Shown piece after piece: positions 2,985 through 53,224 of a stretch of DNA of 64,000 bases. The number at the start of each line of letters is the position of its first letter. Positions within the stretch are counted from its first letter, which is position 1. The notes beneath the pieces are model-generated. The model was not told the origin of the DNA. It saw nothing but the letters and a program-made list of their open reading frames with translations, and ran no database searches. The position numbers and the translations under genes are program-made. Where the stretch lies: assembly GCA_963978895.1 (NCBI GenBank), contig OZ022240.1:19735406-19799405 (forward strand), given 5' to 3'. The stretch is from Erpobdella octoculata. Taxonomy: Eukaryota > Annelida > Clitellata > Hirudinida > Erpobdellidae.

Positions 2985-3355
2985 GCAAATCTATTTTACG
3001 TTTTATGGGCTAAAAGAAGTTATGAAAGACACAACCTTGAGAGTCAAGTGGAATTAAAAGAAAATGAGCGTGAACGGGAACGGGAGAGCAACCGTGACCG
3101 GGAATGGGAGAGCAAGCGTGACCGGGAACGGGAGAGCAAGCGTGAGCGGGAACGGGAAAGCGACCGGGAACGGGAAAGCGACCGGGAACGGGAAAGCGAC
3201 CGGGAACGGGAAAGCGACCGGGAACGGGAAAGCGACCGGGAACGCGGAAAGCGACTGGAAGCGGGAGAGCAAGCCTGGAAGGAAACGGGAGCAAGAGAGA
3301 AAATCGATAACAAAACTTCTGAAAACCCTGAGCAACGCCGGGTAACCCCGCTAGT
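2985..3355 (+). mobile_element. HelB Helitron, plus-strand copy with minisatellite
   Basis: From about 3029 it carries the HelB internal word CACAACCTTGAGAGTCAAG. A minisatellite of GGGAACGGGAAAGCGACC units follows at 3070-3290, and it ends GCAACGCCGGGTAACCCCGCTAGT-like at 3355. The segment 2995-3028 is shared with DNA at 17655-17680, so it may belong to a HelB subtype. Together with the inverted copy at 2644-2980 it forms a large inverted repeat. Confidence 0.7.
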
Positions 3356-14545: not shown

Positions 14546-16520
<1,975 letters not shown>

Positions 16521-16529
16521 CAGTATACC

Positions 16530-17450
16530 GGCACTAAATTTTCAGATATGCCAGCTCTATTAAAAAATACTCGTCATTTTGAAGAGACTGTGAAACACAT
16601 GCACCCTCAACGGACACTCCCGAAAACCCGTCATCCACCTCTTCACCACGTTTTATCCGGTGCGTTCGGACGGAATCATGGCAACTGGATAAATAACCAT
16701 CGTCATACACAACATCTGTTCGATCAACCAGACTATCACCAGGCAATCCCTACAAGCACCATGTATCTTGAGTTTTTAATCCCTGCAACAAGTCATCTGT
16801 AGATGAGGCGCCTTTTATATCACCATCACTGTTACATATTTCAAAGGCTTGGGAGGAAAAAACATAAATTTAACAGATATTGGCTGTCTTCTCAAACTGC
16901 AATTGAAGTGGCAAACTTGTAGAAGAGTGAATTTCTTTGCATTTATAACTGAGCAACATGCTATCTGTTATGGAGTTGCCTTTTAAATCACTATCATGGT
17001 TATTTTCAACAGATGCATGTGAGGGAGAGAAACAGTTATCAACATCAATATTAACGTCATCAGCAGTCACGACCTTGAACAAACAACTTTCTTTTGCATT
17101 TGTGTCATTTACGTGTCCAGATGTTTTCAACAGAGACAGCATTTTCAATCTGATGTTCCATAGTGAGTTGAATATCTGCAGACTACAGGCGTGGTTGTGC
17201 AACCCCTGATTTGACTGGATCAGAACAAATCAAAGTATTAATACCATTGGTTGATTCTATTTGACTTAACATCACCAACATCAGATATATTGAACAAAGA
17301 CAATATGCCATCTATAAAATCTTTTTGCATATTAATTCTGGGTTTTTCCTGAGAAATATACAAAGCTTCAGACAATTTGAGACAAATCGAACAATGCTCT
17401 TTACGCAAAATCTCATTGTTGTTGTCCAATATCTTTCTGTCAAGACGGAT
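16530..17450 (-). other. Coding-like but unassigned segment between two TA tracts
   Basis: Minus-strand frames at 17429-17238, 17202-16870, ~16855-16750 and 16746-16534 have ordinary amino-acid composition, unlike the surrounding low-complexity frames. One acidic motif recurs loosely: DSDLKGNSITDSMLL near 16960 and NSDGDIKGASSTDDLL near 16810. Stops and frame changes separate the parts, so this looks like a decayed or intron-split fragment. I do not recognise the family. It could be host sequence carried by a Helitron, since elements flank it on both sides, but no element boundary proves that. Confidence 0.35.
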
Positions 17451-17457
17451 CTGATGT

Positions 17458-17460
<3 letters not shown>

Positions 17461-17521
<61 letters not shown>
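17461..17521. repeat. (TA)n microsatellite
   Basis: About 60 bp of pure TA repeats next to a HelB 3' end. Confidence 0.95.
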
Positions 17522-17523
<2 letters not shown>

Positions 17524-17665
17524 TAGCGGGGTTACCCGGCGTTGCTCGGGGTTTTCAGAGGTTTTTTATGATTTTTCTCTCTTGCTCCCGTTTCCTTCCC
17601 CGCTTGCTCTCCCGTTTTCGTTCCCGCTCATTTTTTCTTTTCCTCTCTTTCATAACTTATTTTAG
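17522..17665 (-). mobile_element. HelB Helitron 3' end, inverted
   Basis: Starts ACTAGCGGGGTTACCCGGCG, the complement of the HelB 3' end, and continues with TTGCTCCCGTTTCCTTCCCC. The minisatellite is nearly absent. How far the element extends to the right is unclear; CATAACTTATTTTAGCCCAT near 17650 is shared with the HelB copy at 2995. Confidence 0.65.
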
Positions 17666-18060
17666 CCCATAAAACGATGTGCATCCAGTTGTTATATCAA
17701 GACATCCTTGATTTGCTAAAAGTTGCTTGAAGCCTTCAAACGTTGTTACGTAAACAAAATTTGAATTTTATTACGCAATAACCTTCGATGGTCGTACATA
17801 GGAACTTTTGGCCTGGAAAGTTAAGAAGGGGAAAAAGTTAAGAAGCTTTGGACTCCTTCTTCGATCCCCCGGCTCAGAGGGCCAAAAAACCTTCCGGGCC
17901 AAAACTGCCTATACATGATCATTGCATACATTTTCGAAGCACTGTTTACAATTGAGTAACAGGCATTACTTGCTAATGGACTTCTTAATATTAAGAAGTC
18001 CATGACTTGCTTCCCAGTCTTGCATAATGTGACCGATTGCGCGTTATTACAAATTATTAA
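17666..18060. other. Spacer with a perfect 28-bp palindrome
   Basis: No gene recognised. Positions 17976-18003 are a perfect palindrome with half-site ATGGACTTCTTAAT. A closely related imperfect palindrome lies at 47039-47079. Confidence 0.6.
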
Positions 18061-18061
18061 G

Positions 18062-18466
<405 letters not shown>

Positions 18467-18929
18467 TATGTGTGTAAGTCCTTTATGCATTGCTTCACCA
18501 TTCCTCTGATCGTAATGCAATTTTCACACAAGCTTGAGAGGCAATCGGAGAAGGTTTTTGTGAACGAAAACGGGAACTGCAGAATGAGCGGTAACAAAAA
18601 GCAAGCGGAAACGGAAAAGCAAACGAAAGCGAAAGAACGACTGGGAAAGGAAATGCGACCGGGAACGGAGGGCAAGCGGGAGTGGGAAAGCGACCGGGAG
18701 CGGGAAAGTGACCAAGAGCGGGAATGCGACCGGGAGCAAGAAAGCGCCGGGAGAGGGAAAGCGACCGGAAGCGGGAAAGAGATCGGGTAAGTTACCGGGA
18801 GCAGGAAAGAGACAGAGAGCGGGAAAGCGTCAGGGAGCGGGAAAGCGTCCGGGAGCGGGAAAGCGGCAGGAAGCGGAAAAGCGAACAAAAGCGGGAAAGC
18901 GACCGAAAGGGGAAAAGGACCGGGAGCGG

Positions 18930-19766
18930 TGTCACGGTTGTCTCTATCGTTGATTGTAATTTTGAGCTGAATAACTTTATTGCGCGGACTAGGCGAAGAG
19001 CGCGATGAAAAACGCCGACTAGAGAGGTAGCGTCGGTTCGCTTATTAATCAAACTCGCTCGTTTTTGGTGTGCTTTTAGTTCTAGCGTCTTTCCTATTAA
19101 GTTTTCGATAATTTTTAGTACGTTGTATAGATATTGTGTAGTCCTTTATTTGTACCTAATTTTATCGATTTCGGATGAGTATTAAATAAGTTGTAGCGTG
19201 AAATGTAACATATTTTAAGCACACTTTTTTGTAAATTTGTTGAGTGCTGACGTAAGCGCTTTTGTTCTGCGTTGTGATTGGCTCTTTAAGTAATTATCAT
19301 AATTCCTTTTGACTAAGTGTCGTTTCTAGCCATTTGTATCGTTGCTAATGTAAAACCTTTTAGTATATCAAATTATAAAACGAATTATCTGTTTGGAAAA
19401 GGAGTTTAGTTTAATAATATTACTTCTTCGCGGTGATTTTGTTGTATATTGCCTTTGTAAACTTTTGTGTGTCAAACGGTCACGTGGGGCTAGTCAAACG
19501 GTCACGTGGGGTTAGTCAAATGGTCACGTGGAATTAAAGTTGCATTAGGATTGGTGGTTTTTGTATATTAAAATTGACACGTGTGCTAGGCTATATAAGG
19601 AAATTTTGCGATTGGAATTTTAGTTCTCTTCTTCGTGCGATTTTGGGAGGTAAAGCTCTGTCCGATTAGTGTCGTTTGTGTTATATTAATAAACTGTTGA
19701 ACCTTGTTAGTCTCGAATCAGTTGTTTCGTCGTCAGGCATCAATACCCGAGCAGAATCCCGTCACA
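18930..19766 (+). repeat. 5' LTR (837 bp)
   Basis: Bounded by TGTCACGG at 18930 and CCCGTCACA at 19766. U3 signals include TGACGTAAGC (CRE-like, near 19248), GATTGGCTC (inverted CCAAT, near 19277) and a 22-bp tandem triplication with CACGTG. A TATA box is at 19592 and a polyadenylation signal AATAAA at 19688-19693, 70 bp before the LTR end. This gives a normal U3-R-U5 layout. Confidence 0.9.
19471..19599 (+). promoter_or_regulatory. LTR enhancer and core promoter: E-box triplet plus TATA box
   Basis: Three copies of GTCAAACGGTCACGTGGGG place CACGTG at 19481, 19503 and 19525, exactly 22 bp (about two helical turns) apart. A fourth CACGTG is at 19578 and CTATATAAGG at 19591. CACGTG with a 5' T (TCACGTG) is the preferred site of USF/MITF/TFE-type bHLH-zip factors. 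The same triplication is at 24595-24655 in the 3' LTR. Confidence 0.65.
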
Positions 19767-19768
19767 TT

Positions 19769-19786
19769 TGGTGTCAGAAGTGGGAT
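19769..19786 (+). promoter_or_regulatory. Primer-binding site, tRNA-Leu type
   Basis: TGGTGTCAGAAGTGGGAT begins two bases after the 5' LTR. It is complementary to the 3' end expected of an animal tRNA-Leu (…CCCACTTCTGACACCA), the primer for minus-strand DNA synthesis. The tRNA assignment is from memory. Confidence 0.75.
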
Positions 19787-20024
19787 CGGGTCATCGTTTT
19801 TGTTCAAAACTGTTGCGAATCGTGTTGATTTTAGTGAACGATATTCACCGAACCGAATATTTTAGTGAACAATTTTCGACGAACCGAATATTATAGTGAA
19901 CGATATTGAACGAACCGATTATTTTATCGAGCGAACCGAACATTTTATTCGACGAACTGAATATTAAGAACGAATCGAACATTTCGAAGAAACGTTGAAG
20001 TTAGACACGACTAGTTACGTTAAC

Positions 20025-21245
20025 ATGGACAAATTTGATGCAGAGAAACAAGCTGAGATAAAAAGAATTCCGACTGAACGTTTGATTATCAAACTCAAGG
20101 CAACAGGAAAATCTGAAGAAGAAGTAGAAAACCTGACAAGACCACAGATATTAAATTTATGGGCCGAAATGTTATCGAAAGGAAAAATTGAAGCAGAATC
20201 GCGTAGTGTCACTCCAACCGAAGAATTTATGACAGAAGCATCAAAGTTTGAACAATGGAGGATTTCACAAGAACTGAAGATAAGAGAACAAGAATTACTT
20301 CGTTTGCAAAAGAAAGACGAAGAAGAACTAAGACTCAAGGAAGAAGAACTCGAAAGACTACGAAAGAAAGACGAAGAAGAACTCGAAAGACTATGAAAAA
20401 AAAACGAAGTAGAACTTGAAAGACTACGAAAGAAAGATGAAGAAGAACTCGAAAGACAACGAAGGAAAGATGATGAAGAGTTAAAATTTAAAAAACAAGA
20501 ACTGAGAATTAGAGAATTAGAACTATCAAGATGGCAACAGAAGACTGAAGAAGATAGACATTTCCGCGAAAAAGAGTTAGAATTACAAGAAGAGAATGTA
20601 CTGCTTCGACAAAAGAGAGATGAAACTAGAGCTGCTAAAAAGGACTCGTTAGTATTCAAAATTAAGATGTATGGTGATGCAATGAAAAATGTAATGAGGA
20701 AATTGCCTGATGATCCGAGTGAGATTCCGAGTTTCTTCGAACATTTAGAAAATTGTTTTGTTATATATGAAGTTGATACAGTTATAAAAGTAAAACTTCT
20801 CCAAATGTGTCTTAATGAAAAGGCAAAGTCTTTGATTTCGAGATTGTCATATGAAGATTTGGATGATTATGAAACCGTAAAACAATTTTTGTTAGATGAA
20901 TTTAGAATAAGTCCGATAAAGCTGCGTGAACATTTCTACACTATAAAGAAACAAGCTAATGAAACTTATCAACTATTTGCTTCAAAGCTAAGAAATTCGT
21001 TCATGTATTATCTCCAAAGCCGGAACATAAAGAATGAATTCGACAAACTGGTAAACTTATTGATTGCTGATCGTATGAAGGAATTATTACCACGTGGGTG
21101 TTTGAACTACATTCTATCTCAAGAACAGGAAGGATGGTTGAGTTTTGATTAGCTTTCCAAATCAGCTGACAACTTTACGGCCTCTCACGAAAGAGATGAA
21201 TTTACAAGAAAAGAACCCAAACCAGGAACAGAGTACAGTTACCCA
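20025..21245 (+). pseudogene. gag polyprotein with nonsense mutations
   Basis: The first ATG after the primer site (20025) opens a frame that stays in phase to about 21245 but is broken by TGA at 20394 and TAG at 21150. The N-terminal half is a long charged coiled coil made of repeats of KKDEEELERL. The TGA arose in one repeat (CTATGA where neighbours have CTACGA). The C-terminal half (KLPDDPSEIPSFFEHLENCF to LPRGCLNYIL) looks like the capsid domain of Ty3/Gypsy elements. After the TAG the same frame still reads gag-like (LSKSADNFTASHERDEF), then a frameshift leads into the zinc knuckle. Capsid assembly would not be possible without readthrough. Confidence 0.8.
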
Positions 21246-22132
21246 TGAAACGATAAGACCGGCTCGACAAATGATGGAGAGAGCAATCGATCACAGGCCA
21301 AATCGTCAAACATTGGACAAGGCAAAAGATGAAGCAATGAAAAGGGGTCTTTGCTTTACCTGCCGAGGTCGAAGACATTTGGCAAAGAACTGTCCAAACA
21401 GAAATGCTGCCAAGATATCATCATGTTCAGTTATTAGTCAAGCAAATAGAAACGTAATCGAACCATCGAATGATAATCAAGAAAATTGCTTCAAGGCGAA
21501 CGAAATTTTCAAAAGATCTTTCGTCCAAGTGAAAATAGAGGGTCTGGAACCGCAATCAGCACTTATTGATGGAGGAGCTGAAATCTGCTGCATCCACACC
21601 AATCTCGTCGAACCATTAGATGTGCCGGTACAAAAACAAATTGCTATATCAGGGTTCAAGGGTGAATCAACAGTGGTAGACGTGGTATGTTTGAAAATAA
21701 AGCCGGGTGATGAAGACGAAAACCGTTTAGTAAACATTAGTCCTATGGTCAAGGTATGGTTTGCTGTGGTGCCGGACTTGAATGAAATGGTTATCTTAAC
21801 ACCTTCGGTAGTGGAACTTCTTGACAGTATGAAGACCTACAATGTTCTCTCAAGCGAATCAACAGTAATTTCAAATAAAGTTGAAAACGAAGACCAGAGT
21901 AACAGTGAGCAGGAATTCTGTGAAGTATCAGCAATAGTGGATGTGAACAAGGAGTCTACCGACATCAAGACCGCGCTGGTTGAAAAGGTTAATAGGACGG
22001 CCGACGTGAGTGAACTGATAGCTGAACAAAGGAATTGCCCATCTCTTCTAAAATACTGGGAGCTAGCAGAATGGAACAAAAAGGGTTTTTACATTGAAGA
22101 TGGCCTATTTCACCACAAGAAAAGCTTATATG
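21246..22132 (+). pseudogene. Zinc knuckle, retropepsin-like protease and start of integrase
   Basis: Part of a frame open from 21145 to 22917. CFTCRGRRHLAKNC (Cx2Cx4Hx4C) is the nucleocapsid knuckle. The protease domain follows, with active-site segment ALIDGGAEICCIH: the Asp is present but the usual Ser/Thr after it is Gly, which should impair catalysis. Next, ELIAEQRNCPSLLKYWELAE and KGFYIEDGLFHHKKSLYG resemble the stretch before the HHCC zinc-binding domain of Gypsy integrases. At about 22133 the reading switches in frame to spectrin. Confidence 0.8.
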
Positions 22133-23647
22133 GAGCTCATGAAATCCAAAACTTTAATAGGGATTCCGAGGAAACAATCGCATGGATGATCGAGAAAGAC
22201 ACATTGTCAGCTGATCATTACGGTAGAGACCTTCCCTCAGTCCAAGCGCTTCAACGCAAGCATGAAACTCTAGAAAGGGATCTCGGAGCTGTTGAAGAAA
22301 AAGTAAAAACATTACAAGAAGAAGCGGCCAGACTTACAGAAGTTCACACAAATCAGAGTGAAGACATCACTGGGAAGCAATCAGACATGTTTAACAACTG
22401 GCAGCGATTAATTGAGAAGGCCTCCAACAGACAAAACTATTTGATTTCGTCAAATTACCTTCACCGATTCCTGTCTGATTACAGATACTTGATTAGTTGG
22501 ATTTCCGATACCAAGGCTATCATTTCTGCTGATGAGCTTGCGAAGGATGTGGCTGGTGCTGAAGCTTTGTTGGAAAAACATCAGGAACACAAGGGGGAGA
22601 TTGATGCTAGAGAAGATAACTTCAGAAGCACGGCTGAAGCTGGTCAGAAGCTGTTAGATTCAAATCATCCAGCAGTGCAAGAAGTTAAGGAGAAGCTTGT
22701 GACTCTTGCCAATGAAAAGACTAGTCTGCTGGAGTTGTGGGAAGTGAAAAGAATTTTGTATGAGCAATGCATGGATCTTCAGCTATTTTACAGAGATACG
22801 GGACAAGCCGACGCATGGATGACCAAGCAAGAGGCGTTCCTGGCTAACGATGACTGGGGAGACTCATTGGATTCGGTTGAGGCACTGATCAAGAAGCATG
22901 ATGATTTTGAAAAGTGACTTGCTGCCCAGGAGGAGAAGATAAAAGCTCTCGATGATTTCGCTGGAAAACCGGTTGAAAGTGGACGAAACTAAAATCTGGA
23001 TCAATGAAAAACTGAAAGCTGCATCGGATGAAGAATATATTGACCCTACTAACTTGCAAGGAGAGTTGCAGAAACATGAAAACTTTGCATCATAATTGCA
23101 AGCCATCCAAGCTCAAATTGAATCAATAACCAAATCTGGAGAGGAACTCATCGCAGAAGATCATTATAATAAGGAACATATCAGAGAACGTCTCGGTGAT
23201 ATTATTGGATTGTGGCAGAGACTTGTTGATCAGAGTGATAGAAAAGGATCAAAATTGAAAGAAGCAAATGACCAACAGCAGTTCAATAGAAATGTTGAAG
23301 ATGTAGAAGTTTGGTTAGGTCAGATCGAAGGACAGCTGACATCTGAAGATTATGGAAAGGACCTCACAAGTGTTCAGAACTTGCAGAAGAAGCATGCCCT
23401 CTTGGAGGCCGATGTTGCAGCAAGACAGGACAGAATCGATGGAATAAAACAAGCAGCTGAGCAATTCGTCGAGACTGGACACTTTGATGCCGACAATATC
23501 AAGGCCAAACAGTTGCAACTTGCAGAGAGTTATGCTGCTCTTCAGGAGCCCATGCAGTTGAAACAATTGAAGTTAAAAGACGCACTCAAGTTGCAGCAGT
23601 TTTTCAGATATAGCGAAGACGAAGAAGACTGGATGAGAGAAAAAGGA
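22133..23647 (+). pseudogene. Intronless alpha-spectrin segment captured by the retroelement
   Basis: Begins AHEIQNFNRDSEETIAWM and carries six helix-A tryptophan segments at spectrin spacing: ETIAWMIEK, YLISWISDT, QADAWMTKQ, TKIWINEKL, VEVWLGQIE and EEDWMREK. That is about five repeats from the N-terminal half of the alpha chain, before the SH3 domain; SLDSVEALIKKHDDFEK and GKDLTSVQNLQKKHALLEAD are diagnostic. Alpha-spectrin is a submembrane cytoskeletal rod. No intron is present over 1.5 kb. Defects are TGA at 22915, an internal deletion with frame change near 22970 costing roughly 60-70 codons, and TAA near 23092. No poly(A) tail and no target duplication flank it, so it was not pasted in by a LINE. 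Confidence 0.88.
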
Positions 23648-23760
23648 ACACGATCGCCGACTTCCTCTCACGCGCTACCGACGATGAACCATGAATCAAC
23701 CTCAGTGTCTCGATTCATCTGGATACCAGGACGGACGATGAAGACAAGGTGAGCCGATAA
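23647..23760 (+). pseudogene. C-terminus of the element's pol (RNase H end)
   Basis: NTIADFLSRATDDEP from 23647 resembles the NVVADALSR signature at the end of Ty3/Gypsy RNase H domains. A TGA, then about 20 more codons, lead to TAA at 23758. It is out of frame with the spectrin segment and sits only 35 bp before the 3' LTR, so RNase H would be the last pol domain. Confidence 0.55.
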
Positions 23761-23782
23761 CGAAGAATCCGTTATCGTCTTT

Positions 23783-23793
23783 GAGAAGGGAGG
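23783..23793 (+). promoter_or_regulatory. Polypurine tract
   Basis: GAGAAGGGAGG lies two bases before the 3' LTR start (TATGTCAC at 23794) and would prime plus-strand synthesis. Confidence 0.8.
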
Positions 23794-24296
23794 TATGTCA
23801 CTGTTGTCTCCATCGTCGATTGTAATTTTGAGCTGAATAACTTTATTGCGCGGACTAGGCGGAGAGCGCGATGAAAAACGCCGACTAGAGAGGTAGCGTC
23901 GGTTCGCTTATTAATCGAACTCGCTCGTTTTTTGTGTGTTTTTAGTTCTAGCGTCTTTCCTATTAAGTTTTCGATAATAATTTTAGTACGTTGTATAGAT
24001 ATTGTGTAGTCCTTTATTTGTACCTAATTTTATCGATTTCGGATGAGTATTAAATAAGTTGTAGCGTGAAATGTAACATATTTTAAGCACACTTTTTTGT
24101 AAATTTGTTGAGTGCTGACGTAAGCGTTTTCGTTCTGCGTTGTGATTGGCTCTTTAAGTAATTATCATAATTCCTTTTGACTAAGTGTCGTTTCTAGCAA
24201 TTTGTATCGTTGCTAATGTAAAACTTTTTAGTATATCAAATTATAAAACGAATTATCTGTTTGGAAAAATAGTTTAGTTTAATATTATTACTTCTT

Positions 24297-24538
24297 TTTT
24301 TTTTTTTTTATGATAGTTTAATGTCCTTATACATAGTATTTTTAGACATGGGGAATGGGAGGGAAGGGTGGGGGTGGGGAGGAAAAAAAAGGGAAGAAGA
24401 AAAGGAAATAAGAAGAGCCAGAAAATTGCTAAATAATAACACTTTAGGAAGAGGAAAAATTCAGTAGAATATGAATCTAGAATACTCTTTTTCTTCCTTT
24501 TTCCTCTTCCTACTATAACCGTTCCTGGATTGCCGTCC
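24297..24538 (-). mobile_element. 5'-truncated LINE, 3' UTR only
   Basis: Reverse complement of the 3' end at 28520-28757: poly(T) at 24297, then GGGAATGGGAGGGAAGGG, ending CCGTTCCTGGATTGCCGTCC. Flanked by a 13-bp duplication ATTATTACTTCTT (24284-24296 and 24539-24551). It is thus a separate TPRT insertion of the same LINE family, opposite in orientation. Confidence 0.88.
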
Positions 24539-24744
24539 ATTATTACTTCTTCGCGGTGATTTTGTTGTATATTGCCTTTGTAAACCTTTGTGTGTCAAAC
24601 GGTCACGTGGGGCTAGTCAAACGGTCACGTGGGGTTAGTCACACGGTCACGTGGAATTAAGGTTGCATTCGGATTGGTGGTTTTTGTATATTAAAATTGA
24701 CACGTGTGCTAGGCTATATAAGAAAATTTTGCGATTGGAATTTT

Positions 24745-26352
24745 CCGATACACATTTTTTTTCCTCGTTCGCGTTGATGTTGTTGCCAGCTCTCCGAATC
24801 TTGTTTTATCGCTCTCTTGCACGTGTTGTAAAGTGTCGCCGGTCTCATGGGGCCGAAAAAGAAGTTAAAGTTTAACCAGCCTTCGAGAAACATCATCGAA
24901 GAAGCATGGGCTCAAGCTTCCGACAGTGAGGAATCTACTCCTCCCCAGAAGAAAACCAGTTCTGCAGAAACACCGCTGACATCTGCCGCCAACAGAACAC
25001 TACCGTTAGACATAGAGAAAATCATTGCTGAAACCTTCACCCCTGCAAAGATCCTGGCAAGCTTCAAGAGCATTTCATCAGTCAAAACAGGACCCAGCCA
25101 ACAGAACAAGCAACAACAACCAACGACAGAAGAACCCAATGAACTGATCGAACTCTTAATCTTGACGGATATGACCAAGATAGATCCCTTCCAAATCGAA
25201 GGCAGCCTATCCAAATACCTGAACCGAAAGCCAGTGATTACCGGCAAGGGTAAAAAAATTCAAGTCCTTGTGTCAAGAACTGAAAATGAAAAAATGAAAA
25301 ACATACAAGAAATAGCCGGATATCAGGTTAGAGTACTAAATAAACCATTAATTAAGAAGATAAAAATGATTATTACCGGTGTTCCACTGGAAATTTCAAT
25401 AGATATCATAACAAAAAACTCTGGATGCTCCGCAGCAGTGCGGATAAAGAAAAAAATTGATGGAAGGTTTCAGGAGACCACCGCGGTCATCCTTACTTAC
25501 GAACCGGATCAGAATCCTCCGAACTATGTTAAAATATCCTTTTTGAACTTTCGGGTCAAGGAGTACCTCCCTAACCCAGTTAGATGTTTTAACTGTAACC
25601 AATTCGGGCATGTGGCTAAATATTGTAAGGCCAAAACCTCTTGCCCTAGGTGTGCCGGAGAGCATGAGCTAAAAAACTGCTCAACGCCACAACTAGAACC
25701 TTCTAAAAAGATATGTGCCAGCTGCCAGTCTCCTGACCACAGGACAGGAAGCGAAGAATGCCCCAAGTGGCAGAAAGCCAAAAGAACTATCGAGATTGCC
25801 ACATCAAGGAAAACATACTCAGAGGCGCTGAAAAGCGGTTTTAAAAAAACTACAGAGGCCGAGATCAAAGACAAAACACCTGAAATTCAAAAACAAATAA
25901 CTAGGATTGCCGAAAAGACTGACGTCCTGAAAAAGAAATCCACAGGAAAAACACCAGAGGCAGACACGGTTGCTAAATTGCTAACCATGATTGATCAGAT
26001 TTTGCAGGTGCTGTCCACGTTGGTCAACCAAAAAGACGAACACCACAACCAAGAAATTGCAGCTTCAAAGACTGCAGCAGCCATTCTCCCTGGCTCCGGG
26101 ATTGAGGAATCAGCTGGAGAATGGCAACAATGATGTGCATCCAAAGAAAGAGAGGGAAGAAGAAGAAGATGAAGAATTTTTTAGATATATTTTCTGACAT
26201 TTTTCTTTTTCCCTCTCCAAATGGACATTTTTATTTTTATTGTATTTTTATTTTTATTGTATTTCTTTCCTTCTTTCTTTTTTTTATGTTCCGTCTAAAA
26301 ATACAATGTATAAAGACGTTAAACAATAATAAAAAAAAAAAAAAAAAAAAAA
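24745..26352 (+). mobile_element. ORF1-only LINE derivative, unit A
   Basis: Has a 5' UTR that includes GATGTTGTTGCCAGCTCTC, one open reading frame (24847-26133), a 220-bp 3' UTR and poly(A). It is flanked by ATTGGAATTTT (24734-24744 and 26353-26363). No endonuclease or reverse transcriptase is present, yet the 5' end is full length, because unit B has the same start. This is a half-LINE, mobilised in trans. Confidence 0.85.
24847..26133 (+). CDS. LINE ORF1 protein with three CCHC knuckles (unit A)
   Basis: 428 codons from ATG in GTCTCATGGGG. N-terminal MGPKKKLKFNQPSR is basic and the middle region has an RRM-like block around MIITGVPLEISIDIITKNSG. Three zinc knuckles are CFNCNQFGHVAKYC, CPRCAGEHELKNC and CASCQSPDHRTGSEEC. 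This is the ORF1/Gag-like nucleic-acid chaperone of I/Jockey-group LINEs, which packages the RNA. The last residues, PGSGIEESAGEWQQ, are encoded by DNA resembling the 3' UTR of the full element (see 28480-28510), so the C-terminus was created by the deletion that removed ORF2. The frame is intact. Confidence 0.85.
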   Translation: MGPKKKLKFNQPSRNIIEEAWAQASDSEESTPPQKKTSSAETPLTSAANRTLPLDIEKIIAETFTPAKILASFKSISSVKTGPSQQNKQQQPTTEEPNELIELLILTDMTKIDPFQIEGSLSKYLNRKPVITGKGKKIQVLVSRTENEKMKNIQEIAGYQVRVLNKPLIKKIKMIITGVPLEISIDIITKNSGCSAAVRIKKKIDGRFQETTAVILTYEPDQNPPNYVKISFLNFRVKEYLPNPVRCFNCNQFGHVAKYCKAKTSCPRCAGEHELKNCSTPQLEPSKKICASCQSPDHRTGSEECPKWQKAKRTIEIATSRKTYSEALKSGFKKTTEAEIKDKTPEIQKQITRIAEKTDVLKKKSTGKTPEADTVAKLLTMIDQILQVLSTLVNQKDEHHNQEIAASKTAAAILPGSGIEESAGEWQQ

Positions 26353-26363
26353 ATTGGAATTTT

Positions 26364-27948
26364 CCGTTTCCTGTTGATGTTGTTGCCAGCTCTCGGAATC
26401 TCTGTTATCGTTAACTCACACGTGTTGTGAATTTTCGCTCAGTGACATGGGGCCAAAAAAGAAGGCCAAGTTTAACAAGCCTTCAAGGGACATCGTCGAG
26501 GAAGCATGGAGACAAGCTTCCGACAGTGAGGAAACCACTCCTCCACAGAGAAAGACGTTCGCATCAGAGCAACCGCCGACACCTGCCGTCAGGACAACAC
26601 CATCGATAGATGTTCAGAAACTCATTGCCGAAACCCTTACTCCTGCCAAGATCCTAGAAAGCTTCAGGAGCATAGCTTCAGCCAAAACAGGACCCAGCCA
26701 ACAGAACTTGCAACAACATCCGACAGCTGAAAACCATCCTGAAGAAACTGTGGAGTTTATTCTACTGAACGAACTGAACAAGATCAACCCTTTCAAAATT
26801 GAAGAGAGCCTTTCAGGTTTTCTCAAACGACAACCAGAAATTACGGCCAAAGGAAGAAAATTAAAGATCCTAGCCACCAAAAGTGAGAGGGAGAAACTAG
26901 AACAACTGAAAGAAATAGCCGGTTACCAGGTCAGTTTCCTTAAGCCTTTTGTTAAGAAAACAAAATTGATTATTACCGGGGTTCCGACAGAAATCTCATT
27001 AGAAACAATTATCGAAAAATCCGGGTGTGCCGCAGCTGTACGAATTAAGAAAAAAATAGATGGGAGATTTCAGGAATCCACTGCGGTCATCCTCACCTTT
27101 GAACCGGACCGGATCCCTCCGAAGCATATCAGAATATCATTCTTAACTTTCAGACTGAAGGAATACATACCGTACCCGGTAAGATGCTTCAATTGCAATC
27201 AATACGGACACGTGGCCAAGTATTGTAAGGCCAAAACTTCTTGCCCTAAGTGTGCCGGAGAGCACGAGCTAAGAAACTGCTCAACACCAGAGCTAGAACA
27301 ACCTAAAAAGATATGTGCCAGCTGCCAGACTCCTGACCACAGGACAGGCAGCGAGGAATGCCCCAAGTGGCAGAAAGCCAAAAAAGATATCGACACTGCG
27401 ACATCAAAAAAAACATACTCAGAGGCGCTGAAAAGCGGTTCTAAACAAATTACAGAGACCAAGATCCAAGACAAAACACCTGAAATCCAAAATCATGTAA
27501 CCAATATTGCCGAAAGGACTAACGCTCTGAAAAAGAAAGCCACAGGAAAAACACCAGAAGCAGACACGGTAGCCAAATTGCTAACCATGATTGATCAGAT
27601 TTTGCAGGTGCTGTCCACTTTGGTCAACCAAAAAGACGAACACCACAACCAAGAAATTGCAGCTTCAAAGACTGCAGCAGCCATTCTCCCTGGCTCCGGG
27701 ATTGAGGAATCAGCTGGAGGATGGCAACAATGATGTTCAACCAAAGAAAGAGAGGGAAGAAGAAGAAGATAAAGAATTTTTTAGATATATTTTCTGACAT
27801 TTTTCTTTTTCCCTCTCTAAATGGACACATTGATTTTGATTTTGATTTTTTTTTGTATTTCTTTCTTTCTTTCTTTTTTTTTATGTTCCGTCTAAAAATA
27901 CAATGTATAAAGACGTTAAACAATAATAAAAAAAAAAAAAAAAAAAAA
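26364..27948 (+). mobile_element. ORF1-only LINE derivative, unit B
   Basis: Same structure as unit A: the related 5' UTR GATGTTGTTGCCAGCTCTC at 26373, ORF1 at 26447-27733, 3' UTR with TCTAAAAATACAATGTATAA, and poly(A). It is flanked by ATTGGAATTTT (26353) and GATTGGAATTTT (27949). It abuts unit A with one target copy between them. Confidence 0.85.
26447..27733 (+). CDS. LINE ORF1 protein with three CCHC knuckles (unit B)
   Basis: 428 codons, the same length as unit A's product. Knuckles are CFNCNQYGHVAKYC, CPKCAGEHELRNC and CASCQTPDHRTGSEEC. The N-terminal two-thirds has diverged clearly from unit A, whereas the last ~63 residues differ at only one position. The two units are therefore distinct sublineages sharing one 3' module. 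The frame is intact and may still be translated. Confidence 0.85.
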   Translation: MGPKKKAKFNKPSRDIVEEAWRQASDSEETTPPQRKTFASEQPPTPAVRTTPSIDVQKLIAETLTPAKILESFRSIASAKTGPSQQNLQQHPTAENHPEETVEFILLNELNKINPFKIEESLSGFLKRQPEITAKGRKLKILATKSEREKLEQLKEIAGYQVSFLKPFVKKTKLIITGVPTEISLETIIEKSGCAAAVRIKKKIDGRFQESTAVILTFEPDRIPPKHIRISFLTFRLKEYIPYPVRCFNCNQYGHVAKYCKAKTSCPKCAGEHELRNCSTPELEQPKKICASCQTPDHRTGSEECPKWQKAKKDIDTATSKKTYSEALKSGSKQITETKIQDKTPEIQNHVTNIAERTNALKKKATGKTPEADTVAKLLTMIDQILQVLSTLVNQKDEHHNQEIAASKTAAAILPGSGIEESAGGWQQ

Positions 27949-27966
27949 GATTGGAATTTTAGTTCT

Positions 27967-28467
27967 GGTAACGAAGCTGCTGATCGACTTGCTAAAAGTG
28001 CGATCAAGCATGCAGAAGTCGAACTTGTGATCGAGAGAGAACTAGTAGACTTCAAGAGGGCCATCAGGAAAGAGATAATGCGTGAGTGGCAAAAAAGATG
28101 GGATGAGGAATCCCATAGCCGCCATTACTGGTCTATTGAGTCGAAAGTCTATCAAAAAATCAAGTTCGCCACAACGCCCCGGTGCAAGGAAGTTGCCATT
28201 ACCAGACTCCGTCTAGGTAAATGTCGACTGAACCATTACTTAAAAATTTTGGACTTGCATGATATGGGTTTGTGCGAAACTTGCAGGAGTCCGGAAACTG
28301 TTGAACACTGGGTGCTCAACTGCAGGGCAACAGGTCATCCTAGAACCAAGATGAGAAGAATCTGCAGACGTTTCAAGCAAGAACCCACCCTGCCAGTCGT
28401 CTTAAAGTCTCCACGATGCCAGGACGTCATCTACTCCTGGATCAAGGATCACAACATCGTGCTGTGA
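27967..28467 (+). pseudogene. LINE ORF2 C-terminus: RNase H end and HCCC finger
   Basis: GNEAADRLAKSAIKHAEV is the last helix of a LINE RNase H domain. A basic region and the finger CETCRSPETVEHWVLNC follow, and the frame ends at DHNIVL before TGA (28465-28467). An RNase H domain after reverse transcriptase is typical of the I group and relatives. Open but truncated; it would need an upstream fusion to be translated. Confidence 0.8.
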
Positions 28468-28757
28468 TCAACGACTGGCCATCCAGCTTAATCCGGGATT
28501 GAGGATGACAGCAGGACGGCAATCCAGGAACGGTTATAGTAGGAAGAGGAAAAAGGAAGAAAAAGAATATTCTAGATTCATATTCTACTGAATTTTTCCT
28601 CTTCCTAAAGTGTTATTATTTAGCAATTTTCTGGCTCTTCTTATTTCCTTTTCCTTTTTCCTATTTTTTTTCCTACCCACCCCTACCCTTCCCTCCCATT
28701 CCCCATGTCTAAAAATACTATGTATAAGGACATTAAACTATCATAAAAAAAAAAAAA
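27967..28757 (+). mobile_element. 5'-truncated LINE with ORF2 C-terminus, unit C
   Basis: Starts within ORF2 at GGTAACGAAGCTGCTGATCG, ends with a 290-bp 3' UTR and poly(A), and is flanked by GATTGGAATTTTAGTTCT (27949-27966) and ATTGGAATTTTAGTTCT (28758-28774). Its TCTAAAAATACTATGTATAAGGAC tail corresponds to the tails of units A and B. This long duplication reaches further into the LTR than those of A and B, so C is the oldest of the three. Confidence 0.85.
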
Positions 28758-29013
28758 AATTGGAATTTTAGTTCTCTTCTTCGTGCGATTTTGAGAGGTA
28801 AAGCTCTGTCCGATTAGTTTCGTTTGTGTTATATTAATAAACTGTTGAACCTTGTTAGTCTCGAATCAGTTGTTTCGTCGTCAGGCATCAATACCCGAGC
28901 AGAATCCCATCACAAGCGGGAAAGCGACCTGGAGCGGGGAAGGAAACGGGAGCGAGAGAAAAACGATAGAAAAACCTCTAAAATTCCTGGGCAACGCCGG
29001 GTACCCCGCTAGT

Positions 29014-34048: not shown

Positions 34049-34462
34049 TCTATATATATAAAAGAACATGTCCTGACTGACTGACTGACTGATAATCAAC
34101 GCCATGTTTAAACGCCTCATCCTAGAAACGTGAAATTTGGAACTTATATTACTTTTATAGCGCAAGCAATCACTATGAAAGGGTTTTTGAAAATTTTGCT
34201 CCTGAGAGGACGAAACTTAAAAACAAACTTTTTTCTAAAACAACACATATCTCGAAAACCAAAAATGAGGGGCTTTTGAAATTTGGTATCTAGATTCTTC
34301 TTAAAAAATGAAAAAATACGTGTTACGCCATTTTTTGAAACTTTGGTTTCCAGGGCCTCAAATGTGGGGTGGAAAATAAAATTATTTGTTTTTTTAAGTA
34401 ACTGCTACTCAAAAACTGTAAATCATGCAGATGTAAAAATTAATTTTCAGTATCCACTCAAA

Positions 34463-37156
34463 TTATGACATTGTGACAATTCCAAAGGGTTTTAAAACCA
34501 TTGAAGTAGTATGTATTGACTTGATATGGCAGGACTCTTCTTGCAGAGTTATTGGGTACTACCGACCTGGCGGTTCGGATGTTACTGCAACTGATTATTT
34601 TCTTACTAGCACTAAATGCTTATTTTCTTTATGCTCTGTTAACAAATTAGTTGTACTCCTTGGTGATTTCAATTTGCCTGATGTTGATTGGAACCACTAC
34701 CATGTCCCAGACAACCTAATTTACAAATCTTTTATAGATTTTGTCAATAATAATAATTTTCAAAAGTTTGTAGGCCTTCCTACTCGTGAATCAAATATTC
34801 TCGATCTTGTACTATCTAACTCCAATACTTTTATTTTTGGCATGCAGTCAACCATCCCTATAAGTACCACTGATCATAATGTTATTATATTCAAATTCCC
34901 TTGCCCTGGAATGCAACACCATTATGTGAAACAATCTTTCTTTAATTTTGGTCAAGCTAACTATTATGATTTCGAAACGTATCTTTCAAATATTGAATGG
35001 TCAAACCAGTTCCAGAAACTCTCTACTGTTGATGAATGTTGGAATTATCTGCTTTCAATTATCAACAATGGTGTGCAAATGTTTGTTCCTCTCACTTCTA
35101 TATCGACCATAAAAACTTCAAACGTCCAATACCCAAAGTACATAAGAAGTATGCAAAAGAAGAAAGCTCGTTTGTGGAAACAATGGAAAACCAGCTTATG
35201 TCACGCCGATAAAGCAAAATATACAATGACTGCTAAACAATGTTCCACTGAAATTAAAGCTTATCACGCTAAGAAAGAAAAAGAAATGATCCAAAAAAAT
35301 AATTTAGGTAGCCTTTATAACTTTATTAACAAAAGACTTAGTACACACAGCCAAATTTCTGCTCTGCGTCTGCCTGACGGTTCCATCACTAACTTTCTTC
35401 AAGAAATAGCATCTGTTTTTAATGATTTCTTTGCCACAGTGTTCACTTGTGACAATGGAAGCAACCCAACACTCAGCTCTAAAATTTCCGCTGACAACGT
35501 GGCACCACTTACGACTATAGATTTCAGCCCGGCCATAGTTTTAAACGCTCTCAAGAAACTAAAACCTAGCACTTCTTCCGGTCCTGATGGTTTACCCAAT
35601 TTGTTACTAAAGCGTTGCGCCAATTCATTAGCTTTACCACTAAGTATAACATTTGAATACTCTTTTAAATCTGGATTCCTACCGCAGTGCTGGAAAAAAG
35701 CCTATGTTTTGCCTATTCATAAAAAAGATTCTTCAACTGATCCAAACAACTATAGGCCAATCTCACTTACCTCAACTTCCTGTAGAGTTATGGAACGAAT
35801 AGTCAATAGCAAAATTGTCGATTTTTTGATTAGTAACTCCTTAATTTCTAAACATCAACATGGCTTTATCAGAAAAAGATCATGGACGACGAACATACTT
35901 GAATGCTTACATGATTGGACTTCCAGCCTTCAGGCCAGAGCTGTGACGGATGTTATATACTTTGATTTCCGTAAAGCCTTTGACTCAGTTTCACACGCTG
36001 AGCTTTTAACTAAACTAGAAGCCTATGGTCTTGCTGGCAACCTTTTTAACTGGGTCAAAAACTTCCTGACTGGCCGGAGTCAATGTGTAAAGCTATACAA
36101 CAATGTATCTCCAGAAAAACCTGTAACAAGTGGAGTTCTAGGCCCTACTTTATTTTTGCTTTTTATCAATGACGTTGTTGATAATTTTGATAATCTGAAT
36201 GTTACTGCAAAACTATATGCTGATGATATCAAGATTTACTCCTGCCGTTCAACAACCGAACCCAATAACGACTTAAGCAGTGCTGTCTCGAGACTAGTAG
36301 AGTGGAGTACAAAGTGGCAGCTCAACATCGCAGCCGATAAATGCTTCGTTTTTCAAATCGCTAATAACAAAAATGCGATGGTAACTTCATACTCTATTGA
36401 CAACAATAATCTCAAGGTTGTTGACTATATTAGGGATTTAGGCGTTGTAGTTGATAGTAACCTACGGTTTGATAAGCATATTTCAACAATAATTCATAGA
36501 GCCCAAGCAAGAACTCGTTTAATTTTAAGATGCTTCCACTCTCGCGACAAGCAGCTTATGAAGACGGCTTTTTGTGTATACGTCCGACCGTTATTGAAAT
36601 TTTGCAGTGAAGCCTGGTCGCCTCACCTAAAATATTTGTGTGACGACATAGAAAAAGTCCAGCGATCTTTCACTAAAAGACTGGAAGGTCTCAAAAACGT
36701 CTCTTACGTAAATAGACTGAAAGTTCTCAACCTGCAGTCATTGAAGCAACGCCGTCTTAAAATTGATCTGTTGCTGTGTTATAAATTTATGCACCAGTTT
36801 GTCGACACCCTACTGACCAAGGCACTGATACAATCTTCAAGCCACCGTACAAGAGGCCATCCCTACAAGCTTTACAAAATTTCATCCTCGTCTGACTGGG
36901 TCAAGTATTTCTTCACCAACAGAATAGTGGAAGCTTGGAACAACTTGCCTCCTAGTGTTGTGACGACCAAGTCTTCAGAAGCTTAAAAGAACATCTCGCT
37001 TCGTCTTCAATTGGTTCCTAACTTTTTTTAGTTATTTTGCAATTTATGTTTGTTTTCTTATTTTTTTGGTTTTTTTTAATGTTTTTGATAGTATTAGTGG
37101 CACTATGTGTCCTTCTGTCTTTTTTGAAAAAAATATAAAAAAAATAAATAAATAAA
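34463..37156 (+). mobile_element. CR1-type LINE, 5' truncated
   Basis: Begins inside the endonuclease domain and ends in an (AAATA)n tail, AAATAAATAAATAAA at about 37142-37156. It lies inside a HelA copy. The reading frame is described separately. A 3' tail made of a short tandem repeat rather than poly(A) fits the CR1/L2/Jockey-like groups. Confidence 0.82.
34473..36986 (+). CDS. LINE endonuclease/reverse transcriptase, N-terminally truncated
   Basis: 837 codons without a stop. Endonuclease C-terminal part: VVLLGDFNLPDVDW and TTDHNVIIF. Reverse transcriptase: SSGPDGLPNLLLKRC, AYVLPIHKKDSS, NNYRPISLTS, VIYFDFRKAFDSVSH (motif A) and LYADDIKIYS (motif C, YADD). C-terminal thumb: RDLGVVVDSNLRFDKHIS and SWTTNILECLHDW-type fingers landmarks. 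Motif B is damaged: the usual SGVPQGSVLGP reads SGVLGP, so the conserved Gln and Gly are gone, an in-frame loss of about five codons. There is no authentic start codon because the 5' part was lost. The enzyme would primarily copy LINE RNA at nicked chromosomal DNA, but this copy is probably inactive. Confidence 0.88.
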   Translation: MTIPKGFKTIEVVCIDLIWQDSSCRVIGYYRPGGSDVTATDYFLTSTKCLFSLCSVNKLVVLLGDFNLPDVDWNHYHVPDNLIYKSFIDFVNNNNFQKFVGLPTRESNILDLVLSNSNTFIFGMQSTIPISTTDHNVIIFKFPCPGMQHHYVKQSFFNFGQANYYDFETYLSNIEWSNQFQKLSTVDECWNYLLSIINNGVQMFVPLTSISTIKTSNVQYPKYIRSMQKKKARLWKQWKTSLCHADKAKYTMTAKQCSTEIKAYHAKKEKEMIQKNNLGSLYNFINKRLSTHSQISALRLPDGSITNFLQEIASVFNDFFATVFTCDNGSNPTLSSKISADNVAPLTTIDFSPAIVLNALKKLKPSTSSGPDGLPNLLLKRCANSLALPLSITFEYSFKSGFLPQCWKKAYVLPIHKKDSSTDPNNYRPISLTSTSCRVMERIVNSKIVDFLISNSLISKHQHGFIRKRSWTTNILECLHDWTSSLQARAVTDVIYFDFRKAFDSVSHAELLTKLEAYGLAGNLFNWVKNFLTGRSQCVKLYNNVSPEKPVTSGVLGPTLFLLFINDVVDNFDNLNVTAKLYADDIKIYSCRSTTEPNNDLSSAVSRLVEWSTKWQLNIAADKCFVFQIANNKNAMVTSYSIDNNNLKVVDYIRDLGVVVDSNLRFDKHISTIIHRAQARTRLILRCFHSRDKQLMKTAFCVYVRPLLKFCSEAWSPHLKYLCDDIEKVQRSFTKRLEGLKNVSYVNRLKVLNLQSLKQRRLKIDLLLCYKFMHQFVDTLLTKALIQSSSHRTRGHPYKLYKISSSSDWVKYFFTNRIVEAWNNLPPSVVTTKSSEA

Positions 37157-50640: not shown

Positions 50641-52435
50641 AAAAAAAGACGGCTGGTGAGGTTAGTGAATAAAAAAGTTATGTGATTTAGGAACCAAGGA
50701 TGTACTACGTGACTGGTGAATGAATAAGTAAGAAGTTTGTTAAAAAAAAGTGTGAAGTTGGCGAATGAGAAATAATGTGGTTAGTGAATGCTGAGGTGTT
50801 CGTTCAGGAATGAAGTTTGTGTTTACTGTTATTACAAATGAATAGGTGTGCATCTTAAGAAAAATAACCATAAACAAGTGAAGCAAAAACAAAGTTTTTT
50901 TAAAACACACTTTTATATTTTTTTACTACATAAACAACAAACATATTAGATAGACAATAAATAGTTTGACGAAAATATCACAAATAATTATTTATTTAAA
51001 TTTTGTCCAATCGATCCGAAAATTTTATAGAATGCATTATTAATTAGTTCGGAGGTATCTTTAAATTTTGAAGTCTCTAGCTCATTGGTAAGTTTAAAAT
51101 CGATTGCAAAATTGGACGACAGACAGAGAATTCAAGTTAAGTCAAAGTGTGTAAAAAAACAAAACGTTTTATACAAAACACTGTGTATTATTTTAAGTTT
51201 ATAATTAATTATTGGCAGTTTTACAGCTTAAAAAACCATCAAATTTATATGAGAGTTTTTTTTCATATTTTTCTTTGAAACAAAATTAAAAATTATTTTT
51301 CTATTTTATTTCATTAAATGTTATTGTTTTCCTCATTTTGAAGTAAAAAACTTGTGAAATTCAAAAGGAAAAATCCAAAACAGAAAATGCCGAGTGTCTG
51401 AGTTTGACAGATCCAGATAAGATTAACGAGATTAAGAGGGCGTGGTCATTTTGAGTGAGTGAATAAATGGGTGGATGTGTGAGTGAATTAGTGGGTGGAT
51501 GTGTGAGTGAATTAGTGGGTGGATGTGTGAGTGAATTAGTGGGTGGATGGATGAGTGAATTAATGATTTAATGAGTAAGTAAATAGTAGTATAAAAAAGT
51601 ATAAAACTATGTCACCAGCCCGTGAAAAATAGAGGTAAATAATAAATTAATAGTTTCGTTAAAACATTAAAAAAATAATTAAAGAAGTAACATTTAAAAT
51701 GTTTCAAAGCACATCCGGTAATTAGTAATCATCATCATCACCACCAATCATCAGGCACGCCTTATCGATTCGCAAGCAAACGACCTGAGGGCGAATGAAT
51801 AACCTCCATTCATTGGAGCGTGGAGAGTTACAGAGATTGAAGAAGTATTCTTTCTTTTGATGAGAATCAATCAGTTGAATTGTGTTTTTCAGTTGTCCAC
51901 ACAACATGCATACATACATACTGTATTACACAAACACACACTCACACACACACAAGCATACATGGCTGAACAAATAGCTACTCCGTCAGTGCGCATGTCC
52001 AGTGTTCCGGCATGCGCGAAAACATGCGTCGTTGAACTGCGGGGTTTCCGATTCTCCACTTGGCAAATTTCCAGAAGAGAAATTAAGAAAAAAGTTCATA
52101 ACCTTTGTATGCTATTTGTCAATGTTGGTTGGTTCAATTTAAAATTATAAAAATAATATATTCACTTTCTTTATATATTCCGTAAAATGCGAACCGGTTG
52201 GCAGATTATTTTGCAACTTGAACACAAACCACTACCTGATCATGTTCCTTAAATGCATCGAATTTTAATAAAATTGGTTCAGGGGTTTAAATTTGACGTC
52301 GATACAGACATACATATAATCATTTTTATAAATTAAATTGTTCATCAAATATGCAGGATGTGTTTGATACGATTCATGCGACATAACTGAATTTTACAAT
52401 TCCAACATCTCCACCACTTTGATTGATCTCACAAA
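50641..52435. other. Spacer upstream of the TFAP2 exon
   Basis: Contains a 24-bp minisatellite at 51456-51560 (unit GTGGGTGGATGTGTGAGTGA + ATTA). The untranslated part of the TFAP2 exon and its acceptor or promoter should lie near 52160-52435 but cannot be fixed from sequence; an in-frame TGA at 52424 closes the frame before the ATG. Confidence 0.45.
51456..51560. repeat. 24-bp minisatellite
   Basis: Four imperfect copies of a GTGGGTGGATGTGTGAGTGA-ATTA unit. Confidence 0.85.
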
Positions 52436-53068
52436 ATGCACGGGGATTTCCAGCCACCCTATTTTCCTCCCCCTCACGGACACCCTCTACAAGCCCCTCC
52501 CATTCAAGGCGTTGATTTCCAGCCTCAATATCATCCACATCACACTCATCACCCATCTCATCACCACTCACACCACCACCACCTGATGACTCAAGATCCA
52601 TACTCTCTACATTTCAATCACTCGTCATACTACGGAAGCGGAAGTGGCTCTGTTGGCAACAGCGTCAGCAGCGGCAACGTCATCGGTGGTAACAACGGCT
52701 GCAGCACGGGTGGCAACAGCAGCTTTCCATATTCTTCCCATCACAACTTGATCGATAGTTACTGTAGTAGTGGTAGCGGTGGCGGCAGTGGTGTCGGCGG
52801 CACGAACGTCAACAACGGACGATTGAGTTCTTTCGGGGCATTCGACGTGAGACGTGTAACCAATGGCAACTCCAACAACGGAAATCTTCATCTCTTGACG
52901 CAGCAAAATCAGCAACAGTTGCAACAACAAGACCAACAAAATGGTCAGCATCATTTTCACCACCATCACACCATCGACCTTTCGCGTGACCCAACCACTC
53001 TTTTTGGATTGGCTAGCGGAGGAGCCGGAGGAGGAGTTATCGGTCTTGATGATGATCTCATTATGCAG
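52436..53068 (+). CDS. TFAP2: TFAP2 (AP-2) transcription factor, N-terminal activation-domain exon
   Basis: ATG at 52436 (CAAAATGC) opens 211 codons to a consensus donor CAG/GTAAAA at 53068. Retaining the intron would add two codons and stop at TAG. Residues 3-13, GDFQPPYFPPP, match the PY motif region (ADFQPPYFPPP) of vertebrate AP-2. A His-rich run, DPYSLHFNHSSYYG, a Gly/Ser-rich stretch, a Gln-rich run and a second His run follow, ending GLDDDLIMQ. AP-2 factors bind GCC(N3)GGC-type sites as dimers and control ectoderm, neural-crest-like and sensory development. This exon holds the transactivation domain only. Low-complexity runs make its own similarity weak apart from the PY motif, but the DNA-binding exon at 63666 confirms the gene. 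An upstream coding exon, as in vertebrates, is possible as an alternative start. Confidence 0.83.
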
Positions 53069-53224
53069 GTAAAATAGTAATTATTTTTTTAATTAATTAA
53101 TTATTCCAATTATGAAATGTGGACCTAATTTCACGTAAATAGCTTAAAATAAATTATTTTTTATTCTTACCAACAAGTGATACTATGAATAGTAACATTT
53201 ATTTGTTAATCAAACTATTTACTA

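Follow-up and report, generated by a model that had tools for sequence, protein, structure and literature searches.

The locus examined here raises the question of how a segment of an alpha-spectrin gene came to lie inside an LTR retrotransposon, and whether the resulting chimaera has moved since. It is found in a window of 64,000 nucleotides from the leech Erpobdella octoculata, the window being the whole stretch of DNA that was analysed. We are highly confident of the overall answer, namely that a Gmr1-like element captured a spliced alpha-spectrin segment a single time by template switching and that the product spread later. Features are on the + strand unless indicated otherwise, the target-site duplications having no strand.

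The LTR element spans positions 18930-28914 of the window as one unit, with alpha-spectrin inside. Its 5′ LTR (18930..19766, 837 bp) is bounded by TG..CA, and its 3′ LTR (23796..28914) is composed of the pieces 23796-24296, 24552-24744 and 28770-28914 plus target duplications, two later LINE insertion events having interrupted it so that its outer parts lie at 23796-24744 and 28760-28914. The initial annotation had described a single unit with matching LTRs, and the two LTRs indeed align, with 485/501, 198/204 and 153/156 matches when compared piecewise; the 837 sites contain 15 transitions and 8 transversions, a K2P distance of 0.028. Two nucleotides past the 5′ LTR starts a primer-binding-site-like TGG... 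stretch (19769..19786) with a putative tRNA identity, and a polypurine tract (23783..23793) adjoins the 3′ LTR. Within the window, ARAGORN detected no tRNA and an Rfam search gave no match. The 5-bp target duplication that had been annotated is present as AGCGG on both sides (18925..18929 and 28915..28919); these flanks sit in an 18-bp repeat, where a 5-mer would match between two random sites by chance in about 1.9% of cases. The element therefore shows the TG..CA LTR pair, primer site, polypurine tract and target duplication by which LTR retrotransposons are recognized.

The surroundings of the element are rich in other repeats. Positions 24745-28759 hold three LINE-like units arranged head to tail, all with the same 10-bp target TTGGAATTTT (at 24735, 26354, 27951 and 28760). 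In each of the first two, a single ORF1-like frame (433 and 451 aa) leads straight into a 3′ end and poly(A), and by eye these units appear to be ORF1-only; a zinc knuckle was matched in the first (E=0.00056), and the second gave no Pfam match. The coding parts of the units are 74-78% alike and their 3′ ends 99%. A LINE 3′ end in inverted orientation (poly-T), about 245 bp long, lies in the 3′ LTR at 24286-24551, with the 11-bp duplication TATTACTTCTT. Around the LTR element, a Helitron-like setting extends over 15509-29013, with a Pif1-type helicase end at 15509-16228 (PF21530, E=1.5e-15), the 18-bp tandem repeat that harbours the LTR element, and a hairpin ending in CTAG|T at 29012, a putative Helitron end. 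Since further Helitron-like ends occur at 3345 (+), 17523 (-) and 41367 (-), the helicase and the end at 29012 need not belong together. Elsewhere in the window there are a non-LTR element frame of 849 aa (34437-36986), open throughout, in which endonuclease and RT domains are recognized (PF14529, PF00078), and a His- and Gly-rich open frame (52427-53077) that has no Pfam match and seems similar to the N-terminal region of AP-2-type transcription factors.

Between its LTRs the element has, in this order, gag, zinc knuckle, protease, a stretch leading into the integrase zinc finger, the spectrin part, the final RNase H codons and the polypurine tract. The gag region (20025..21206), identified from ORFs and from blastp matches of two pieces to the related element protein P0001 (E=1.29e-12 and 9.15e-71), is broken in the window copy by stops at 20394 and 21150 and by a frame change before the zinc knuckle. 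The CX2CX4HX4C knuckle itself (21352..21393) was found by reading and aligns with relatives. For the aspartic protease (21514..21711), both Pfam matches (PF13650, E=0.00025; PF00077, E=0.0018) are just under the curated cut-offs, and the motif ALxDxGxEICCI is invariant in relatives. The lead-in to the H2C2 zinc finger of integrase was placed, by comparison with relatives, at 21980..22119; the element sequence stops about a dozen residues ahead of the point where the Pfam domain of this finger starts in relatives. On the other side, the C-terminal RNase H codons (ADFLSRATDDEP) occupy 23646..23691, out of frame with spectrin. Both flanks could thus be identified in the window, in agreement with the proposal that spectrin lies between the protease/integrase start and the RNase H terminus, and alpha-spectrin stands in place of the integrase core, RT and nearly all of RNase H.

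That the inserted part is alpha-spectrin, as initially annotated, is borne out by Pfam, by Helobdella and by exons of the same genome; its limits, first given as 22133-23647, had to be corrected to 22118-23645. It falls into a first part (22118..22980; Helobdella residues about 252-539, or 251-539, 85%) and a second part (22982..23645; residues 586-806, 83%), with Pfam Spectrin E-values of 2.9e-51 and 1.1e-37 for the two pieces. Between them, host exons and a gap in the protein alignment reveal a 137-base internal deletion with a change of frame (22980..22982), which is private to the window copy, as none of the other 14 copies has such a gap. Stops are present at 22915 in the first part and 23093 in the second. 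Over 1525 bases, DNA identity with the alpha-spectrin exons of the same genome is 96.5%. The alpha type is preferred over beta (6.1e-195 versus 6.2e-118), the best match being to alpha and to the host gene. The nearest of the 240 spectrin proteins listed is that of the leech Helobdella robusta (84.8% over 446 residues), followed by P0012 (77.1%) and Owenia (69.3%). For spectrin trees, 42 of 120 matches were taken first, and later 39 of 41 proteins hand-picked from the 240, Strigamia and Bulinus being left out of the 39-row tree by a coverage filter. Element and spectrin queries had no match in viral_contigs, genome_contigs or plasmids; none of 10 related element proteins matched spectrin, and none of the 240 spectrin proteins matched a piece of the element.

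To locate the donor, as the initial annotation had suggested, we searched the genome from which the window was taken (386 Mb, 94 contigs), and this one genome is the scope of all genomic counts given here. The spectrin piece had at least 63 matches: a near-complete, unbroken set at 84-93%, a broken-up set on contig C10, and weak ones. Fourteen unbroken loci and the C10 region were examined. The alpha-spectrin donor gene lies on C10, where the captured 1665 bases correspond to 12 exons without any stop; two further C10 blocks matching other spectrin repeats were left out of the exon set. All 11 donor introns in this segment are GT..AG introns of 82 to 1494 bases, and all 11 are absent from each copy examined, the window copy included, so that the stretch is intronless as first described. 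The copies are 95.7-97.1% identical to the donor. Because 11/11 introns are missing, capture passed through spliced RNA, which upholds the earlier view that the joining took place at the RNA or cDNA level. It also makes it highly improbable that a break inside the element was repaired by filling it with DNA of the spectrin gene. In animal TIR elements, filling of gaps at 1-36 bp of microhomology is on record (PMC8277862), and short shared bases are found at both junctions here, but such a repair would have needed a spliced, processed DNA copy beforehand.

The same genome also holds copies that have the lead-in but not spectrin, as revealed by a 201-base junction search together with a protein search that gave at least 138 matches. 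In three of these (L047-L049), the lead-in is followed by integrase (about 67-71% to P0002) and then the RT start, all within 1.7 kb. Three others (L050-L052) run from RNase H into the same 3′ end as the spectrin copies, at 96-99% and next to the polypurine tract, and have the same RNase H C-terminal end as the window element at 23646..23691; a fourth stretch (L053) had no match to the element 3′ end. Taken together, these two sets establish the order PR-IN-RT-RNase H, with integrase upstream of RT/RNase H, within the element's own family, and integrase precedes RT in P0002 and P0005, too. This domain order defines Gmr1-like elements (PMC3587641), and on domain order we assign the family to the Gmr1-like Ty3/Gypsy elements. 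Measured against P0002 and P0005, the spectrin copies lack about 2.6 kb of pol. In P0005 the end of integrase comes almost immediately after the protease and is itself followed by RT, and an integrase-deleted derivative of this kind may exist elsewhere.

The relatives made it possible to define both switch points. At the 3′ junction, the 7 bases GAAAAAG (23639..23645) are common to the host mRNA and the spectrin-free relatives; beyond them similarity was not above chance, as scores equally high were reached at 404-640 of 1835 host positions. At the 5′ junction, the exact overlap between host and spectrin-free relative is limited to the 2 bases AG (22118..22119), and an imperfect likeness continues downstream over about 27 bases. 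With three relatives, the host site ranked 1, 1 and 2 among 1755 host positions, none of 2000 shuffles was as good for any of them, and in the reverse comparison the true site scored 9 and no other site among 1670 positions more than 5. Microsimilarity of the type known from LTR-mediated retrocopies is thus present at both junctions. These features, which also speak for the template switching proposed at the outset, fit strand transfer during reverse transcription, at a short identity on the 3′ side and at a longer similarity on the 5′ side.

Processed pseudogenes made by LINEs carry poly(A) and a 7-20 bp duplication. A further possibility would be that such a pseudogene of alpha-spectrin landed in the element, that pol was then deleted and that the result spread. 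LINEs are active nearby and the introns are missing, as this would require. However, neither poly(A) nor a 7-20 bp duplication surrounds the window spectrin, just as the initial annotation had noted, nor is there a 10-15 bp duplication like those of the local LINE inserts; moreover, the spectrin segment is truncated at both ends, and both ends fall at bases common to the element. We regard this origin, too, as very improbable.

In the template-switching reading, a Ty3/Gypsy element with the order gag-PR-IN-RT-RNase H captured, once, a segment of its own host's spliced alpha-spectrin mRNA. Reverse transcriptase, copying from the 3′ end of the element RNA, would have switched to the spectrin mRNA at GAAAAAG, within the last RNase H codons, copied 1665 spectrin bases across 12 joined exons, and returned to the element RNA just ahead of the integrase zinc finger, where the two RNAs are alike over about 27 bases; this is the order of switches that we infer. 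The product retained LTRs, leader, gag and protease and lost the IN core, RT and nearly all of RNase H. Its spread to at least 15 places would most likely have used the enzymes of IN- and RT-bearing relatives in the same genome, both this help in trans and expression being steps that we infer, and the window copy is a later, decayed family member.

The 15 spectrin-carrying copies examined (the window and 14 further loci) are a minimum for the dispersed family. The order gag, protease, spectrin is found in 14/14 further loci and the leader in 13/14, and none of the 14 has a match to integrase or RT at E 1e-8; the chimaera probably moved in trans. Of the 15 copies, 11 have an unaltered 5′ junction, and a 201-base query across it hit at least 12 genome places, one of which (C5:29310047) is beyond the examined loci. 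The 3′ junction is direct in 12/15, the exceptions being one copy with about 310 extra bases, one truncated and one without a tail. A spectrin fragment (C5:32779108-32779326; query 187-259, 90%) was also observed about 13 kb from another copy. Occurrence of the same junctions on many contigs speaks against the concern, raised in the initial annotation, that they might be chimeric artefacts, and an assembly or library chimaera can be given virtually no weight.

Both outer ends could be read in the window copy and in 2 of the 14 others, which are flanked by the perfect 5-bp duplications CAAAC and ACAAT and so differ from the window copy. LTR K2P distances range from 0.004 to 0.027 in the eight other copies for which 150 or more sites could be compared, so that the LTR pairs of nine copies, window included, diverge by 0.4-2.8%. 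The shared junctions combined with three different target duplications indicate that the chimaera moved repeatedly after one capture; mobility after capture, another mark of LTR-mediated retrocopies, and the recurrence of junctions in dispersed insertions that had been predicted for a mobilized element are therefore both found. Several independent captures, or the spread of one copy by segmental duplication and not by transposition, are very unlikely. Four of the 15 copies lack the standard 5′ junction, which could suggest separate events, but three of these carry one and the same deletion and the fourth a separate one; segmental duplication is opposed by the differing target duplications and LTR ages. 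The common deletion, 165 bases in length when measured by hand and in frame, extends over the 5′ junction in L035, L036 and L045 and marks these as a subfamily of the spectrin element, a younger one.

Mean dS and mean dN between copies amount to 0.054 and 0.037. These values exceed the LTR divergence of any dated copy, which implies that the line replicated after capture. An earlier reading in which capture and the window insertion were about equally old, based on a conserved-column excess of 0.056 (0.025-0.091) versus 0.030 from the LTRs, was dropped, since the other copies make capture the older event. The earlier 42-row tree suggested a long branch, and relative-rate counts were significant with one of four outgroups. 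Pairwise dN/dS of spectrin copies versus host is 0.22-0.56, and pooled pN/pS between copies is 0.69 (78 pairs). We do not deduce constraint on the spectrin part from dN/dS, since host-side synonymous change and transition bias enter there.

Change types were instead counted in 14 of the 15 copies, L038 being left out for its scrambled second half. Private spectrin changes comprise 49 synonymous, 163 missense and 7 stops (ratio to neutral 1.16), and shared changes 25 synonymous, 64 missense and 1 stop (ratio 0.89, p=0.63); changes confined to the host (10 and 4) have a ratio of 0.14 and are constrained. As missense and synonymous changes occur in neutral ratio, private and shared alike, the spectrin part is, to judge by its sequence, a passenger. 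In gag and the PR-IN lead, counted in 11/15 copies, the shared changes are 8 and 6 for gag (ratio 0.28, p=0.03), which look constrained, and 13 and 20 for the lead (ratio 0.55, p=0.11), where constraint is less clear. The gag versus spectrin comparison has p=0.06, so that this contrast in constraint is suggestive only.

Stops in spectrin are fewer than expected, both shared (1 versus 5.2, p=0.034) and overall (8 versus 15.4, p=0.030), these p-values being uncorrected for several tests, and the frame is unbroken from gag start to spectrin end in 3/15 copies. This weakly hints that an open frame was maintained. The open frames, the in-frame shared deletions and the deficit of stops could mean that gag, protease and spectrin are produced as one fusion protein, which benefits the element or is encountered by the host. 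We consider this unlikely, against a background in which the spectrin amino acids change freely. If it were true, the outcome would be a rod-tagged particle protein, or RNA that silences the host's spectrin gene.

Switching of template between the RNA of LTR elements and cellular mRNAs has been described (PMC5408686, citing Tan et al. 2016), and LTR-mediated retrocopies in several metazoans are attributed to Tan et al. 2016 (as cited in PMC5408686, PMC8277862 and PMC9674220). The initial characterization of such events in animals as rarely documented is thus too strong for the mechanism. There, as here, host mRNA is joined to LTR element RNA at microsimilarities; amplified LTR-made retrocopies are also on record, CG17604_r being named as amplified by further transposition (PMC8277862). 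The present case differs in that a single annelid genome displays the donor exons, the two junctions, relatives with pol and 15 copies, and in that the element is Gmr1-like and has retained gag and protease. The nearest worked cases are maize Bs1 and Pxyfem. Bs1 (PMC13317346, PMC5408686) is likewise an LTR element with cellular gene segments inside, but its segments come from three genes and its hybrid ORF is reported to be transcribed and translated, whereas the spectrin element has a segment of one gene. Pxyfem of Plutella xylostella (PMC9674220) shares a partial host cDNA joined to LTR gag, multiple copies and template switching; it is described as clustering on the W, with LTRs not found and a regulatory role, unlike the dispersed LTR units seen here. 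With Gmr1-like Ty3/Gypsy elements (PMC3587641, PMC8556966), the family shares integrase upstream of RT, seen in L047-L049 and P0002/P0005, but its spectrin copies are without IN core and RT; within the polychaete set of PMC8556966, the Gmr1-like clade was reportedly not found. Among the titles and abstract openings listed by one literature search, none concerned a captured spectrin, and we do not claim absence from print. The capture process is already known in animals and plants, and the spectrin element is a new and unusually complete case of it.

In defective retroviruses that carry oncogenes, pol is replaced by host cDNA, the LTRs and the packaging part are kept, and help is given in trans. 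The spectrin element resembles them in the replacement of pol by host cDNA and in its LTRs, but it is a germ-line retrotransposon with no sign of cell-to-cell passage or effect, and may be viewed as their germ-line counterpart. One genome displays the donor with its introns, enzyme-bearing relatives free of spectrin, both switch points and dispersed products of different ages. An animal LTR element can thus swap its pol genes for host coding sequence and still spread, and the spectrin family provides a natural count of how such passengers evolve.
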